Source: Luteimonas fraxinea
Lineage (GTDB): Bacteria; Pseudomonadota; Gammaproteobacteria; Xanthomonadales; Xanthomonadaceae
NCBI RefSeq assembly: GCF_021233355.1
Contig: NZ_CP089507.1
Location: forward strand, 868,001 to 932,000
Reading direction: 5' to 3'
DNA length: 64,000 bases
Shown here: positions 11,344 through 29,833 of the stretch, piece by piece
Numbering within the stretch: the first letter of the stretch is position 1
Layout: each line of letters starts with the position of its first letter
Notes under the pieces: generated by a model
Told to the model about the DNA's origin: nothing
Seen by the model: the letters and a program-made list of their open reading frames with translations, nothing else
Databases searched by the model: none
Made by a program: the position numbers and the translations under genes

Positions 11344-12303
11344 TCAGTCGACGTAGAGCGAACTGACCGATTCTCCGAACGCGATCCGGCGGATCGTCTC
11401 GGCCAGCAGCTCGGCGACGCTGAGCTGGCGGATGCGCGAGCAATTGCGCGCGGCCTCCGACAGCGGGATGGTATCGGTGACCACCATCTCGTCGAGCTGC
11501 GATTTGTTGAGGTTGTCGATCGCCGCGCCCGACAGCACCGCGTGGGTGCAGTAGGCGACGACCTTGGTGGCGCCCTGCGCCTTCAGCGCGGCCGCCGCGG
11601 CGCACAGCGTGCCGGCGGTATCGACGATGTCGTCGACCAGCACGCAGGTCTTGCCGTTCACGTCGCCGATGATGTTCATCACGGTGGCGACGTTGGCGCG
11701 CGGACGGCGCTTGTCGATGATCGCCAGGTCCGCATCGTCGAGGCGCTTGGCGATCGCGCGGGCGCGCACCACGCCGCCGACGTCGGGCGAGACCACGACC
11801 ATGTTGTCGGTGCCGTGCGCGCGCCAGATGTCGGCCAGCAGCAGCGGCGAGGCGTAGACGTTGTCGACCGGAATGTCGAAGAAGCCCTGGATCTGGTCGG
11901 CGTGCAGGTCGATCGTCAGCACGCGGTCGGCGCCGGCGGCGGTGACCATCTTCGCAACGACCTTCGCCGTGATCGGCACGCGCGTCGAACGCAGGCGACG
12001 ATCCTGTCGCGAGTAACCGAAGTACGGGATCACCGCGGTCACGCTGGACACCGAGGCGCGCTTGAGCGCGTCGATCAGCACCAGCAGTTCCATCAGGTTC
12101 TCGGCCGACGGCGCGCTGGTCGGCTGGATCACGAACACGTCCTGGCGGCGGACGTTTTCTTCGATCTCGACCTGCACTTCGCCGTCGGAGAACGTCGACA
12201 CCAGCGCCTTGCCCTGGCGCACGCCGAGTTCACGGCATACGGCCTTGGCCAGCGGGCGGTTCGAGTTGCCCGAGAAGATCAGGAGATTGCGTTCTTCTTT
12301 CAT
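11344..12303 (-). CDS. prs: Ribose-phosphate pyrophosphokinase
   Basis: Makes PRPP from ribose-5-phosphate and ATP for nucleotide, His and Trp synthesis. 319 residues from the ATG at 12303 ([20 protein letters not shown]), the family length. Another in-frame ATG at 12351 would add 16 unrelated residues and is rejected, although neither start has a strong ribosome binding site. The PRPP-binding loop [13 protein letters not shown] and the flexible-loop region [10 protein letters not shown] are intact. Confidence 0.97.
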
Positions 12304-22027: not shown

Positions 22028-23010
<983 letters not shown>

Positions 23011-23084
23011 ACGCGGCGGCGGCGGGCAACGCGCACGCCGGTATCATGGGCGGCCCGATTCGCTGCCTGCAGGACCGCATCACG

Positions 23085-23573
23085 ATGGACGAACTGCTGA
23101 TCGTCACCACCGGTGGCACGATCGACAAGATCTACTTCGACGACAAGTCGGATTTCCAGGTCGGCGATCCGCAGATCGGTCGCATGCTCGAGGAACTCGG
23201 TGTCGCGTTCCGGTTCCGGGTGATTCCGATCATCCGCAAGGACTCGCTGCACCTCACCGACGACGACCGCGAACTGATCCGCGCGACGATCGCCGCGCAG
23301 CCGGCCAAGCACGTGCTGCTGACCCACGGCACCGACTCGATGGTCGAGACCGCCAAGGTGCTCGCGTCGATCACCGACAAGACCATCATCCTGACCGGCG
23401 CGCTGAGCCCGGCGCGGTTCCGCGGCTCGGATGCGGAATTCAACATCGGCACCGCCGTCGGGGCCGTGCAGTCCAAGCCGCCGGGCGTGTACGTGGCGAT
23501 GAACGGTCGCATCTGGGATCCGCTCAAAGTCCGCAAGAACGTCGAAGCCAACCGCTTCGAACCGCTGGGCTGA
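23085..23573 (+). CDS. Short asparaginase-like protein (N-terminal domain only)
   Basis: 162 residues, about half of a normal L-asparaginase. The catalytic TGGTIDK (first Thr) and HGTDSM motifs of the N-terminal domain are present. The C-terminal domain that completes the dimeric active site is absent, with no remnant downstream before the next gene. A TATCAT -10-like element lies 37 nt upstream. Such short proteins are a distinct family in this lineage; hydrolase activity is unproven. Confidence 0.82.
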   Translation: MDELLIVTTGGTIDKIYFDDKSDFQVGDPQIGRMLEELGVAFRFRVIPIIRKDSLHLTDDDRELIRATIAAQPAKHVLLTHGTDSMVETAKVLASITDKTIILTGALSPARFRGSDAEFNIGTAVGAVQSKPPGVYVAMNGRIWDPLKVRKNVEANRFEPLG

Positions 23574-23577
23574 AGGC

Positions 23578-24027
23578 TCAGTCGACCGCGGGTCCGCGCA
23601 TCCGCATCTCCGGACCCGGACCGATGGTCATGCGACTGTCGGGCTCGGCGTATTCGACGTCGGGCTCGGCATTGAGCGCATCGAGCAGCCGCTGCGCCTG
23701 TGCGGCATCGAGCTGGGGATCGACCGAGACGACATCGGCGCCGACCGCGAGCCGGCGCAGCCAGGTCACCTTGCCGGGCACGCCCTTCCCATCAACCAGA
23801 CCCGCGCTGCGGGCGCTCTGGGCGATGCGGTCGGCGACCAGCGCCGGATCGCGTTCCGGCGCGCTGCCGGGCGTGTAGCGGACGATGAAACGCTGCTGCA
23901 TGGCGCTGACCTCGGTGGACGTGGTGGCAGGCGGATCGCCGCCCATCGCGCAACCAGACAGCAACAGGGCCGGAACGAAGAACGCGGCGCCGAAGCGCCG
24001 CGCGAAATGAGGATGACGTCGGTGCAT
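23578..24027 (-). CDS. Lipoprotein resembling a free-standing subtilase propeptide
   Basis: 149 residues from the ATG at 24027 (GGAG 7 nt upstream). The signal peptide ends in LLSGC with lipid Cys26 and Ala at +2, predicting outer-membrane retention. Residues 45-130 align by eye with the propeptide of the subtilase encoded 2.5 kb upstream: RFIVRYTPGSA versus RFIVKYRDGSA, VGADVV versus LGADVV, AEPDVEY versus ADPNVEF. No catalytic domain follows. It may act in trans as a folding chaperone or inhibitor of the neighbouring proteases; this is inference. Confidence 0.75.
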   Translation of the reverse strand: MHRRHPHFARRFGAAFFVPALLLSGCAMGGDPPATTSTEVSAMQQRFIVRYTPGSAPERDPALVADRIAQSARSAGLVDGKGVPGKVTWLRRLAVGADVVSVDPQLDAAQAQRLLDALNAEPDVEYAEPDSRMTIGPGPEMRMRGPAVD

Positions 24028-24077
24028 GGCGGTCTCCGCGGAGCACGCGTCCGCGTGCGACCCCGCGATCATGCCTC

Positions 24078-24099
24078 CACCCCGGGCGTGCCCGGGGTG
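24078..24099 (-). terminator. Hairpin between the lysyl endopeptidase and lipoprotein genes
   Basis: Nine-bp perfect stem CACCCCGGG/CCCGGGGTG with a four-base loop, 13 nt after the endopeptidase stop. No U-run, so termination is uncertain; it may reduce readthrough into the lipoprotein gene. Confidence 0.4.
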
Positions 24100-24112
24100 A
24101 ACGCGTGCGCCG

Positions 24113-26446
<2,334 letters not shown>

Positions 26447-26564: not shown

Positions 26565-28298
26565 TCAGTTGTGGCTGGCGCGCAGCGTGACCCCGGAGAA
26601 CGATGTGTAGCCGCGGACCAGCACGTGGTACGTGCCCGCCTGCGGCGTTGCGAACGCGCAGCTCTCGGTATTGCCGGTGCGGTACGGACGGCAGTCGTAG
26701 GTCGACGTCGTCGGCGCACTGCCGCGGCGCACGTACAAGTCGGCGTCGCCACTGCCGCCAGAGATCGCGATGACCAGGTTGCTGGCGCCCGACGGCACGG
26801 TGAACGTCCACGTGCGCGTGCTGTTGGCCGCACCCGACACGCCGGTGACCGGCACGCCGTTCTGCAGACCGCCGGTGCCGGTGCCCGGATCCGGGTTCGG
26901 CACGGTGCCGCCGGTCGCAGCCGCAACGGCCGCTGCCGCATCGACGATGCCCGCACCGATCGGCTGGGACGGCGTCGACGGGAACGCGCGCGCGGTGCTG
27001 GTCAGCAGGGTCTTGATCTGCGCCGGTGTCTTGGCCGGATTGGACACCGACTGGATCAGCGCGACGACGCCGGCGACATGCGGCGCCGCCATCGAGGTGC
27101 CGTCGTAGGTCGCGTAGCTCTCGCTGCCCGGCGTGGTCTGCCCGCTGTTGAGCGTGGAGACGATGCCCGAACCCGGCGCCGAGATCGTGATGCCGGTGCC
27201 GTAGTTGGAGAAGCTCGAACGCGCGCCGGTGCTGGTATTCGACGCCACCGAAATCACGTTGCTGCAGTTGGCCGGCGAGAAGCCCGAGACATTGGCGTTG
27301 CTGTTGCCTGCGGCGATGACCAGCGTGGTGCCGCGGTTGACCGCGCCGTTGATCGCGCTCTGCATCGCGCTGCCGCAGGTACCGGCGCCGCCGAGGCTGA
27401 GGTTGATGACCTCGGCCGGATTCGCGTTCGCGGGCACGCCGCTGACGGTGCCGCCCGACGCCCAGATCACCGCATCGGCGATGTCGGAGTCGTAACCGCC
27501 GCCGCGACCGAGCACGCGCACCGGCACGACCTTCGAATCGGGCGCGGTGCCCGCGACCCCGACGCCGTTGTTGGTGACCGCCGCAACCGTGCCGGCCACG
27601 TGCGTGCCGTGCCAGCTCGACGCGCGACCGTTGTAGAAGTCGCCCGGATCACTGGGATCCGCATCGCGCCCGCCGCCGTCACCCGACACCGCGGTATCGA
27701 TGATGAAGTCGTAGCCGGGAAGAATGTTCGCGTTGAGATCGCTGTGATTGGTGATGCCGGTATCGAGCACCGCGACGACAGCGCCCGCACCCTTGGTGGT
27801 GTCCCAGGCGGTGGTCGCGCGGATGCCGCCTGCGCCGGTGCCGAAGCCGTACTGGCTGCTGAAGCGCGGATCGTTCGGGGTCCAGAACACCTGGTTGAGC
27901 TTGTCGACTTCGACGAATTCTACGTTCGGGTCGGCGGCGATCTGCCGCATCAGCGATTCGGCGTCCGCGCGGTCGAGCTTGCGGCTGGTGCGCACGACGT
28001 CGGCGCCCAGCGTCATGCGCCGGACGTGTTCGAGGCGCAGCTGCTTGCCGCCGCCACTGACCGCGATCCGGCTGGCGGATGCGCGCAGCGCGGTGTCGAT
28101 CGCGGCCGGGTCGGCCTGGAGCGCCGAGCCGTCGCGGTATTTGACGATGAAGCGGTCGTGGGTGTCGGACGACTGCAGGCCGCCGAGGTTGAGCCGGTCC
28201 GTGGCGTTGAGCGACAGCGGCGCCAGGGCCGCGAGCGCGAGGGACGTGGCGGCGACGAGCAGACGACGGCGCGGCGCGTGATACGGGTGATTCGACAT
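26565..28298 (-). CDS. Secreted subtilase (S8 family) with C-terminal PPC domain
   Basis: 577 residues from the ATG at 28298 (MSNHPYHAPRRR). Signal segment about 11-33, I9-type propeptide about 45-135, and catalytic domain 140-455 with Asp179 (VLDTG), His230 (HGTHVAG), Ser402 (GTSMAAP) and oxyanion Asn332 (AAGNSN). The C-terminal PPC domain (about 480-577) is usually removed after secretion. The 460-bp region upstream holds no gene. A longer frame exists upstream but lacks homology. Likely part of the extracellular proteolytic set of this predatory or saprophytic family. Confidence 0.93.
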   Translation of the reverse strand: MSNHPYHAPRRRLLVAATSLALAALAPLSLNATDRLNLGGLQSSDTHDRFIVKYRDGSALQADPAAIDTALRASASRIAVSGGGKQLRLEHVRRMTLGADVVRTSRKLDRADAESLMRQIAADPNVEFVEVDKLNQVFWTPNDPRFSSQYGFGTGAGGIRATTAWDTTKGAGAVVAVLDTGITNHSDLNANILPGYDFIIDTAVSGDGGGRDADPSDPGDFYNGRASSWHGTHVAGTVAAVTNNGVGVAGTAPDSKVVPVRVLGRGGGYDSDIADAVIWASGGTVSGVPANANPAEVINLSLGGAGTCGSAMQSAINGAVNRGTTLVIAAGNSNANVSGFSPANCSNVISVASNTSTGARSSFSNYGTGITISAPGSGIVSTLNSGQTTPGSESYATYDGTSMAAPHVAGVVALIQSVSNPAKTPAQIKTLLTSTARAFPSTPSQPIGAGIVDAAAAVAAATGGTVPNPDPGTGTGGLQNGVPVTGVSGAANSTRTWTFTVPSGASNLVIAISGGSGDADLYVRRGSAPTTSTYDCRPYRTGNTESCAFATPQAGTYHVLVRGYTSFSGVTLRASHN

Positions 28299-28586
28299 CC
28301 GATAACCCCCAAACCTGTGGGTGAGAGCCGCGCTTGGGCGGCAGATCGGGAGCCGTCGCCGCCGCCTGAACTCCGGGCAACGCCGACTCCGCAACGAATG
28401 CGGACGTGACAAAACTGACCGCAAACTGACGCTACGCGACAGTGCGACCCGTTCGCAACGCAAGAAACCGTTAAAGTTTCATGAATAATGGCGCACACCG
28501 TCACATATTGACGATGTGGGTCATGGTTTCGGGATCGAACGCACGCTGAATGGAGTGGGTCAGCGGACGACAGAGTGGATGCGCCG

Positions 28587-28758: not shown

Positions 28759-29310
28759 TCAGAGCATGCCGGTTTCGAGGCGCGCGGCTTCCGACATCAT
28801 CGAGCGGTTCCACGGCGGGTCGAACACGAGTTCCACATCGGCCTCGACGACCGTGGGAATCAGCTCCAGCTTGCTGCGCACGTCGTCGACGAGGATGTCG
28901 CCCATGCCACAGCCCGGCGCGGTCAGCGTCATCTTGACCTCGAGCCGGCGCTGGCCATCATCGGTCGGCTGCACCTCGGCCTCGTAGATCAGCCCCAGAT
29001 CGACGACGTTGATCGGAATTTCGGGATCGAAGCAGGTGCGCAGCTGGTTCCAAACCATGCGCTCCACTGCGGCGTCGTCGGCGCCATCGGGCAGTTCCAG
29101 CGGCACCGGCGGCTCCTTGCCGATCGCATCGGCATCGCGGCCGGAGATCCGGAACAGGTTGCCCTCCACGAACAGCGTGTAGCTGCCACCCAGTGCCTGG
29201 GTGATGTAGCCGGCGCTGCCCGCGGGCAGGGTCACGTGTTCGCCTGCCGGCACGAGGACGGCGGCGCAATCGCGCTCGAAACGGACGGGTTCGCTGCTGC
29301 GGGAGTACAT
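28759..29310 (-). CDS. sufT: Iron-sulfur assembly protein SufT-like (DUF59)
   Basis: 183 residues from the ATG at 29310. The C-terminal half is a MIP18/DUF59 domain with CFDPEIPINVVDLGLIYE and the conserved MTLTAPGCGMGDILVDDVR. The N-terminal half (VPAGEHVTLPAGSAGYITQALGGSYTL) is the SufT-specific extension. Known role of the family: Fe-S cluster maturation when demand is high. No suf operon lies nearby. Confidence 0.88.
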   Translation of the reverse strand: MYSRSSEPVRFERDCAAVLVPAGEHVTLPAGSAGYITQALGGSYTLFVEGNLFRISGRDADAIGKEPPVPLELPDGADDAAVERMVWNQLRTCFDPEIPINVVDLGLIYEAEVQPTDDGQRRLEVKMTLTAPGCGMGDILVDDVRSKLELIPTVVEADVELVFDPPWNRSMMSEAARLETGML

Positions 29311-29398
29311 AGGACCATCAGATGGTGGCCAGGGGCGGCCACGACAAGGTCTGTCATTGTATCGCCGCGCGCCGGTATGCTGATCGGCCGTTTCCGCG

Positions 29399-29833
29399 AT
29401 GCAGCCTTCCATGCCGCCAAGGCACCACCCCGCGGGCGCCCGGCGCTGGCCGATGGCGACCGCCCTGCTGCTGCTCGGCAGTTTCGGCATCGCTGCCGCC
29501 TGGATCCTGCTGGCCGACGCGCGTGGCACGCAGACGAGCTGGATGGCGGTCATCGCCGCGTTCGATGCGGCCTGGTTGCTGCGCCTCGCCCGTGCCCGCC
29601 CCGGCGTGTTGCGCGCGCTCGCCGGCACCGTGGCCACCGTGCTGGCGATCGTGATCGCGAACTTCGGCATCGTCGCGTCGCAGCTCGCCCGGCCGATGGG
29701 CATGCTGCCTTGGGAGTCGTTGCTCAAACTCGGCCCGCACCATGCGTACACATTGGCGACGCTCGCCAACTCGACGGTCGATCTGGCCTGGCTCGGTGCC
29801 GCGCTCGTGATCGCGGCAGTGGCGTCGCGCTGA
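29399..29833 (+). CDS. Small membrane protein, unknown
   Basis: 144 residues, with four hydrophobic segments at about 19-37, 47-62, 73-95 and 121-140. No family recognised. It is divergent from sufT with 88 bp between starts and convergent with pntB. Confidence 0.7.
   Translation: MQPSMPPRHHPAGARRWPMATALLLLGSFGIAAAWILLADARGTQTSWMAVIAAFDAAWLLRLARARPGVLRALAGTVATVLAIVIANFGIVASQLARPMGMLPWESLLKLGPHHAYTLATLANSTVDLAWLGAALVIAAVASR

Follow-up and report, generated by a model that had tools for sequence, protein, structure and literature searches.

A predicted lipid-anchored stand-alone subtilase propeptide as a probable uncleavable inhibitor of the adjacent exported protease in Luteimonas

We analyzed a stretch of 64,000 nucleotides of Luteimonas fraxinea (the window; positions 868,001 to 932,000 of contig NZ_CP089507.1, assembly GCF_021233355.1) in which a gene for a predicted 149-residue lipoprotein follows the genes of an exported subtilase (family S8) and an S1-type protease. 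The lipoprotein is a stand-alone relative of subtilase propeptides, and we consider it probable, at roughly two chances in three, that it is an uncleavable decoy inhibiting the producer's own adjacent exported subtilase in trans. The propeptide-like fold, the kinship with propeptides, the selection on the gene, the linkage to S8 in most bearers and a rule for the tail, by which Pro or the end of the chain is found at the presumed scissile position only where a window-type subtilase adjoins, come directly from the computations, and from sequence and predicted structure we infer the binding, inhibition and location of the protein.

A Stand-Alone Propeptide-Like Domain

The preliminary description of the window had reported a lipoprotein with an LLSGC lipobox that matches the propeptide of the subtilase encoded 2.5 kb upstream and lacks a protease domain, and both points hold. 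The open reading frame (ORF) contains the lipobox LLSG with cleavage before C26, its body aligns with the neighbour's propeptide at 35 of 92 identical positions (58.9 bits, E 4e-15, BLASTP) with the shared blocks RFIVRY/RFIVKY, GADVV, and DVEY/NVEF, and Pfam finds no protease domain in it. The profile PF22148 (Fervidolysin_NPro-like) scores 18.9 bits for the window lipoprotein, under its curated cutoff of 21; with an E limit of 0.1 it matches 12 of 30 relatives, the best of them at E 0.002. PF05922 (Inhibitor_I9) is not among the Pfam matches of the window lipoprotein; it matches one of the 30 relatives (E 0.094) and, in a search of the whole source genome, a single other locus and not the lipoprotein gene. 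NCBIfam gave only matches below cutoff for the window lipoprotein.

An I9-like fold had been anticipated, and the AlphaFold model shows the predicted propeptide topology (E45-51, H56-59, H61-74, E86-92, E98-103, H108-120, E124-129; E, strand, H, helix). Prosubtilisin propeptides are among its structural matches, the fold being a common one, while a sequence-based profile search of solved structures returned chance-like matches (RecA arrays) and, weakly, the proteinase K precursor. For comparison across the family, propeptide-like domains from a named-genome scan (75 loci), the family-search loci and the source-genome loci were divided into zymogen domains, whose ORF also encodes an S8 domain (105 distinct), and stand-alone domains, whose ORF does not (39 distinct). 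The propeptides of subtilisins carry an ExD pair as a helix cap, Glu69/Asp71 in BPN' (PMC6993865), and the corresponding residues are conserved in the stand-alone set, E128 in all 39 domains and D130 in 38.

Among 36 proteins with starts chosen by us, the window protein included, a relaxed lipobox pattern was found in 31, or 30 after reclassification of L060, and none has Asp at position +2; the other six look like ordinary Sec-exported proteins. A residue other than Asp at +2 directs lipoproteins to the outer membrane, a rule cited in PMC2873492, and by this rule, taken by itself, the lipoprotein would be located there.

Tail and Presumed Scissile Position

Tail positions were counted gap-free from the helix-capping Asp (D). 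Comparison of the proteinase K precursor with mature chains places the processing bond between D+6 and D+7, and the mature chains 5yl7, 3ti7, 3ti9, and 9g8v apparently start at D+7 and those of AprV2/AprB2 at D+8, with starts read off alignment ranges and chain ends that may reflect constructs. We infer that D+7 is P1' of autoprocessing. In zymogens, D+6 and D+7 are mostly hydrophobic and Pro is found at D+9 in 95 of 105 domains and at D+6 or D+7 in none. In the stand-alone set of 39, D+6 is Gly or Asp in 23 domains and D+7 is Pro in 30; when the sequences are clustered at 60% identity, 11 of 16 stand-alone domains and 0 of 39 zymogen domains have Pro at D+7. The placement by MAFFT that equates P137 with the Pro of the zymogen TPND motif was rejected, as it needs a gap, and the gap-free positions of the two are D+7 and D+9, respectively.

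Of the nine stand-alone domains without this Pro, two stop right at D+7, six are detached copies and one is from Azohydromonas. A further 24 distinct stand-alone proteins gave 20 with Pro, 2 ending at D+7, and 2 of other kinds (L153 and L154). We then tallied 61 distinct proteins (loci L048 and above, scoring 90 bits or more, a limit below which the Azohydromonas locus L100 falls), reading L216 by eye, counting 13 short loci as linked and including L054, which shows no more than a fragment of an S8 gene. All 53 proteins beside a window-type subtilase have Pro (49) or the chain end (4) at D+7, and the 8 whose subtilase is absent or swapped have neither. The losses trace to about three or four lineages and, because of this, Fisher values on Pro versus linkage mean little.

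Origin and Selection

A search of ~5.8 billion proteins found 37 relatives of the lipoprotein (E 0.001 or lower). None carries a precomputed Pfam domain, and all are from Luteimonas wherever an organism was named. They are mostly called "hypothetical protein" and in part, in UniRef, "Uncharacterized protein," the UniRef exceptions P0035 and P0036 being named DUF3303 and SPOR domain-containing. The ratio of nonsynonymous to synonymous substitution rates (dN/dS; NG86 script) between the lipoprotein gene and five relatives is 0.17–0.50, and the gene is maintained under purifying selection.

In an unrooted tree of 85 body columns with the tail left out, 38 of the 39 stand-alone domains form a single clade with a support of 99 in the Shimodaira–Hasegawa-like approximate likelihood ratio test (SH-aLRT), and the clade joins the propeptides of Lysobacteraceae zymogens. 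A more careful tree of 45 rows supports the stand-alone group at 100/99, and constraining the window-type proteins to group with their neighbours' propeptides was rejected (approximately unbiased test, p-AU 0.0004); both trees have few columns and some long branches. A recent local duplication of the neighbour's propeptide was rejected on the single clade and the constraint test, and the computations on the sequences show the stand-alone lipoprotein family as descended from subtilase propeptides with one old origin. The exception, L100 of Azohydromonas, groups with the zymogens of its own genus and looks like a second origin. In Azohydromonas australica, this stand-alone propeptide (11403-11984(+)) lies directly after tandem subtilase genes, has a Sec-type signal as judged by eye and lacks the Pro.

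Distribution and Linkage to Subtilases

In the window's genus (g1), 36 of 52 genomes carry the lipoprotein at a bit score of 129 or more with profile A2, and the remaining 16, some of them incomplete, have no match; in 11 of the 16, the island is visible and contains a subtilase. A survey of co-occurrence with proteases had been proposed, and an S8 gene adjoins the lipoprotein in 36 of 36 g1 bearers, with 33 of the links made via zymogen matches, two in L153 and L154, and one through a contig-end fragment (L171). The same holds for 20 of 20 bearers of a Lysobacter-type genus (g16) and for the single bearer in g48, giving an island S8 gene in 57 of the 63 bearing genomes examined. In all six bearers of genus g4, the gene stands alone after sufT with no S8 gene in the island, and each of these genomes carries two to four S8 genes elsewhere. 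In a sample of 395 genomes of the family, 53 pass E 1e-33 in 5 of 54 genera, a cutoff that missed weaker copies such as that of G003; the sole match in genus g38 (G074) is a zymogen by its frame length of 908 aa, leaving four genera.

Wherever both borders are visible in Luteimonas, the block has sufT (with pntB) on one side and asparaginase/wrbA on the other. The g16 islands are longer, with sufT visible in 8 and asparaginase in 1 of 20 stretches. The island subtilases mostly retain their own propeptide.

Proposed Mechanism and Alternative Explanations

According to the mechanism that we propose, the lipidated protein would be anchored at the outer membrane, facing the periplasm, and its domain would dock on prematurely active subtilase in the manner of a cis propeptide. 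E128/D130 would cap two surface helices of the enzyme while the tail occupies the S4–S1 groove, and Pro at P1', often with Gly or Asp in place of the zymogens' hydrophobic P1, would block cleavage; if the bond lies one residue later, the Pro would be P1. Short forms ending at D+7 may act as product-like inhibitors. The lipoprotein would thus serve as an immunity protein that shields the envelope during transit of the protease. Inhibitors that place an uncleavable residue at the scissile site have been described, with Gly in staphostatin B and Pro in securin (PMC7863939), and Bacillus subtilisin propeptides can inhibit other subtilisins, the pernisine propeptide being selective (PMC10580911, for the cases it covers). 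A wider proposal, for which we see even odds, is that the Luteimonas–Lysobacter group made a lipid-anchored immunity protein from a subtilase propeptide by fixing Pro at the autoprocessing position, that the island behaves as a toxin–immunity-like unit whose block persists only together with the matching protease, and that Azohydromonas suggests repeated origin in bacteria.

Several observations weigh against a decoy inhibitor. Eleven islands (L156, L157, L158, L160, L162-L165, and L167-L169; the far border of L158 is out of view) hold a subtilase, four of them with an S1 gene, and have no lipoprotein, which is thus dispensable, and the six proteins without a lipobox indicate that the anchor is not essential to the family. 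The six detached copies, five of them with a lipobox, survive without a neighbour, and another use is possible. The Pro at D+7 is one ancestral trait that was kept, so that the counts are non-independent, and the 24 added proteins include many close relatives of those in the first set. The register assigned to P137 is based on sequence and not on structure: residues 134-143 have a predicted local distance difference test score (pLDDT) below 50 in the model, and among the structural matches only 3whi_A (model 131 = chain 72) fits D130 = Asp71, assuming no end gap. Finally, the raw correlation of distances with the lipoprotein across 19 loci is lower for S8 (0.49) than for S1 (0.72), SufT (0.74), and AspN (0.68).

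Lipase-specific foldases (Lif) are encoded next to their lipases, and the lipoprotein could similarly be a membrane-tethered steric chaperone that folds the exported protease in trans. The order of genes, enzyme and then anchored helper, and the shared fold would suit this, as would the few extra tandem S8 ORFs without a propeptide match (L175@5410, L201@2255, L210@170 and @5057). According to PMC10580911, the propeptides of mesophilic prosubtilases both assist folding as chaperones and act as inhibitors. On the other hand, most island subtilases have a propeptide of their own, the 11 islands above do without the lipoprotein, and a pure chaperone does not account for the Pro or chain end at the presumed scissile position, or for its absence from proteins whose subtilase is lacking or replaced. 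A folding helper is unlikely, and less likely than a decoy inhibitor; of the chaperone/immunity factor suggested in the preliminary description, the inhibitor and immunity part gains from the residue at the presumed scissile position and the chaperone part is weakened.

Instead of the producer's own enzyme, the lipoprotein might guard against foreign subtilases of competitors, predators, or hosts. The persistence of detached copies in six genomes of one genus (g4) is what such a role would predict, but the presence of S8 in the island of most bearing genomes (36/36, 20/20, 1/1, and 0/6 in g1, g16, g48, and g4, respectively) is not, and the detached copies lack the Pro, one of them (L069, whose frame begins right after the sufT stop) also lacking a signal peptide. 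We regard a foreign target as improbable.

The exported proteases in general had been named as partners. The S1 gene lies directly upstream of the lipoprotein gene in the window and in most Luteimonas cassettes, and its distance correlation, higher in the raw data than that of S8, is 0.17 (p 0.03) given SufT and AspN only. With S8 also controlled, it falls to 0.09 (p 0.15), while that of S8 with the others controlled is 0.33 (p 0.0005), which is weak evidence in favour of S8. No S1 gene is visible beside the linked copies L065, L070, L153, and L181 (~20 kb each), and the lipoprotein domain descends from S8 propeptides. The S8 enzyme is the probable target, and a partnership with S1 is very improbable. 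A functionless, recently duplicated propeptide fragment is scarcely credible, as the 39% body identity to the neighbour's propeptide and the eroded-looking versions L069, L153, and L154 are outweighed by the single clade, the rejected grouping with the neighbour and the dN/dS values.

Relation to Known Inhibitors

Cis propeptides are the usual explanation for how bacteria survive the passage of broad-specificity proteases through their envelope. The family described here points to a safeguard that is anchored, acts in trans and is recognizable by a single residue, Pro at D+7, and it gives an annotation rule by which a propeptide-derived inhibitor may be distinguished from a broken fragment of a protease gene. 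Our searches of an open-access literature library listed no report of a bacterial stand-alone propeptide lipoprotein.

In our best reading, by analogy, the lipoprotein is the subtilase counterpart of SpeB–Spi and the staphostatins. It resembles SpeB–Spi and staphostatin/Bfi most in mechanism and eukaryotic stand-alone inhibitors such as SUB1-ProM most in fold. A bacterial case of another kind involves PopC of Myxococcus, a subtilisin-like protease. PopD is a partner protein that complexes PopC before secretion, but PopC lacks a signal peptide, PopD undergoes degradation when the cells starve and the account in PMC6434023 mentions no kinship with propeptides. In Streptococcus pyogenes, the propeptide analogue Spi is encoded beside the exported protease SpeB and has a suggested protective role; SpeB, however, is a cysteine protease of family C10, and Spi is not called lipid-anchored in that source (PMC2873492). 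The genes of staphostatins and Bacteroides Bfi inhibitors likewise adjoin protease genes, their products bind like substrates but present a residue at the scissile bond that cannot be cut (Gly at P1), and Bfi1B and Bfi4 are predicted outer-membrane lipoproteins, but the fold is lipocalin-like, the targets are cysteine proteases and Bfi has no significant identity to propeptides (as described in PMC7863939 and PMC2873492). The propeptide fold without a protease is found in Pleurotus peptidase A inhibitor 1, yeast peptidase B inhibitor, Arabidopsis SPI-1, TgMIC5, and Plasmodium SUB1-ProM, the last of which is encoded next to subtilase genes, retains the capping Glu and acts as an inhibitor in trans; the examples named in PMC6993865 are all eukaryotic, and none is described there as a lipoprotein or as blocked by Pro. 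What distinguishes the window family is its occurrence in bacteria, its descent from an S8 propeptide, the lipid anchor predicted for most members and the Pro at D+7.

Gene Order and Additional Observations

The subtilase, S1-type protease, and lipoprotein genes lie in a row on the reverse strand, separated by gaps of 133 and 85 bp (Table 1). The ORF of the subtilase as listed spans 26565-28463(-). The convergent asparaginase-like ORF ends 4 bp short of the lipoprotein gene. A terminator scan listed nothing for the 85-bp gap; its entries were a weak pair of candidates in the 133-bp gap and another within the lipoprotein gene. A stable GC-rich hairpin stem at positions 24076-24101, in the gap ahead of the lipoprotein gene, was discounted, as it has no T-run and a z of only -1.48.

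Table 1. Coordinates of the lipoprotein gene, its parts and the surrounding genes in the window
Feature	Coordinates	Strand	Basis or remark
Stand-alone propeptide-like lipoprotein gene, 149 aa + stop	23578..24027	-	ATG at 24027
Lipoprotein signal peptide through lipobox Cys, residues 1-26 (LLSGC), Ala at +2	23950..24027	-	Sequence, relatives
Propeptide-like domain, residues 44-130, ending at helix-capping pair E128/D130	23638..23898	-	AlphaFold model, alignments
C-terminal tail, residues 131-149 (SRMTIGPGPEMRMRGPAVD), P137 at D+7, the presumed P1'	23581..23637	-	
S1-type protease (Trypsin_2; lysyl-endopeptidase-like by eye), with PKD and two PPC domains; central gene of the cassette	24113..26431	-	Pfam
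Exported subtilase (S8), own N-terminal propeptide and PPC domain, probable target	26565..28298	-	Likely start 28298, chosen by us
Asparaginase-like ORF (named by eye), convergent, conserved island border	22833..23573	+	
SufT-like gene (by eye), opposite conserved border	28759..29769	-	Taken from MYSRSSEPV onward

In the source genome, a further S8 gene is broken across two frames (L017 and L018, G000:C1:1809212-1810178), perhaps a pseudogene or an assembly error. In two genomes of the window's genus, at L153 (10601-12592(-)) and L154 (8023-9960(+)), the island subtilase appears by eye to have been swapped for a proteinase K-type enzyme with a classical propeptide, and the stand-alone propeptides there have no Pro at D+7 and, by eye, no signal peptide. 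The Lysobacter-type islands (L172-L178 and L201-L214, without L212) show up to five S8 ORFs and one full-length stand-alone propeptide. In two Lysobacter-type islands, a second propeptide-like ORF ends at the domain end and has no tail (L204, 15798-16391(-); L205, 1311-1823(+)).
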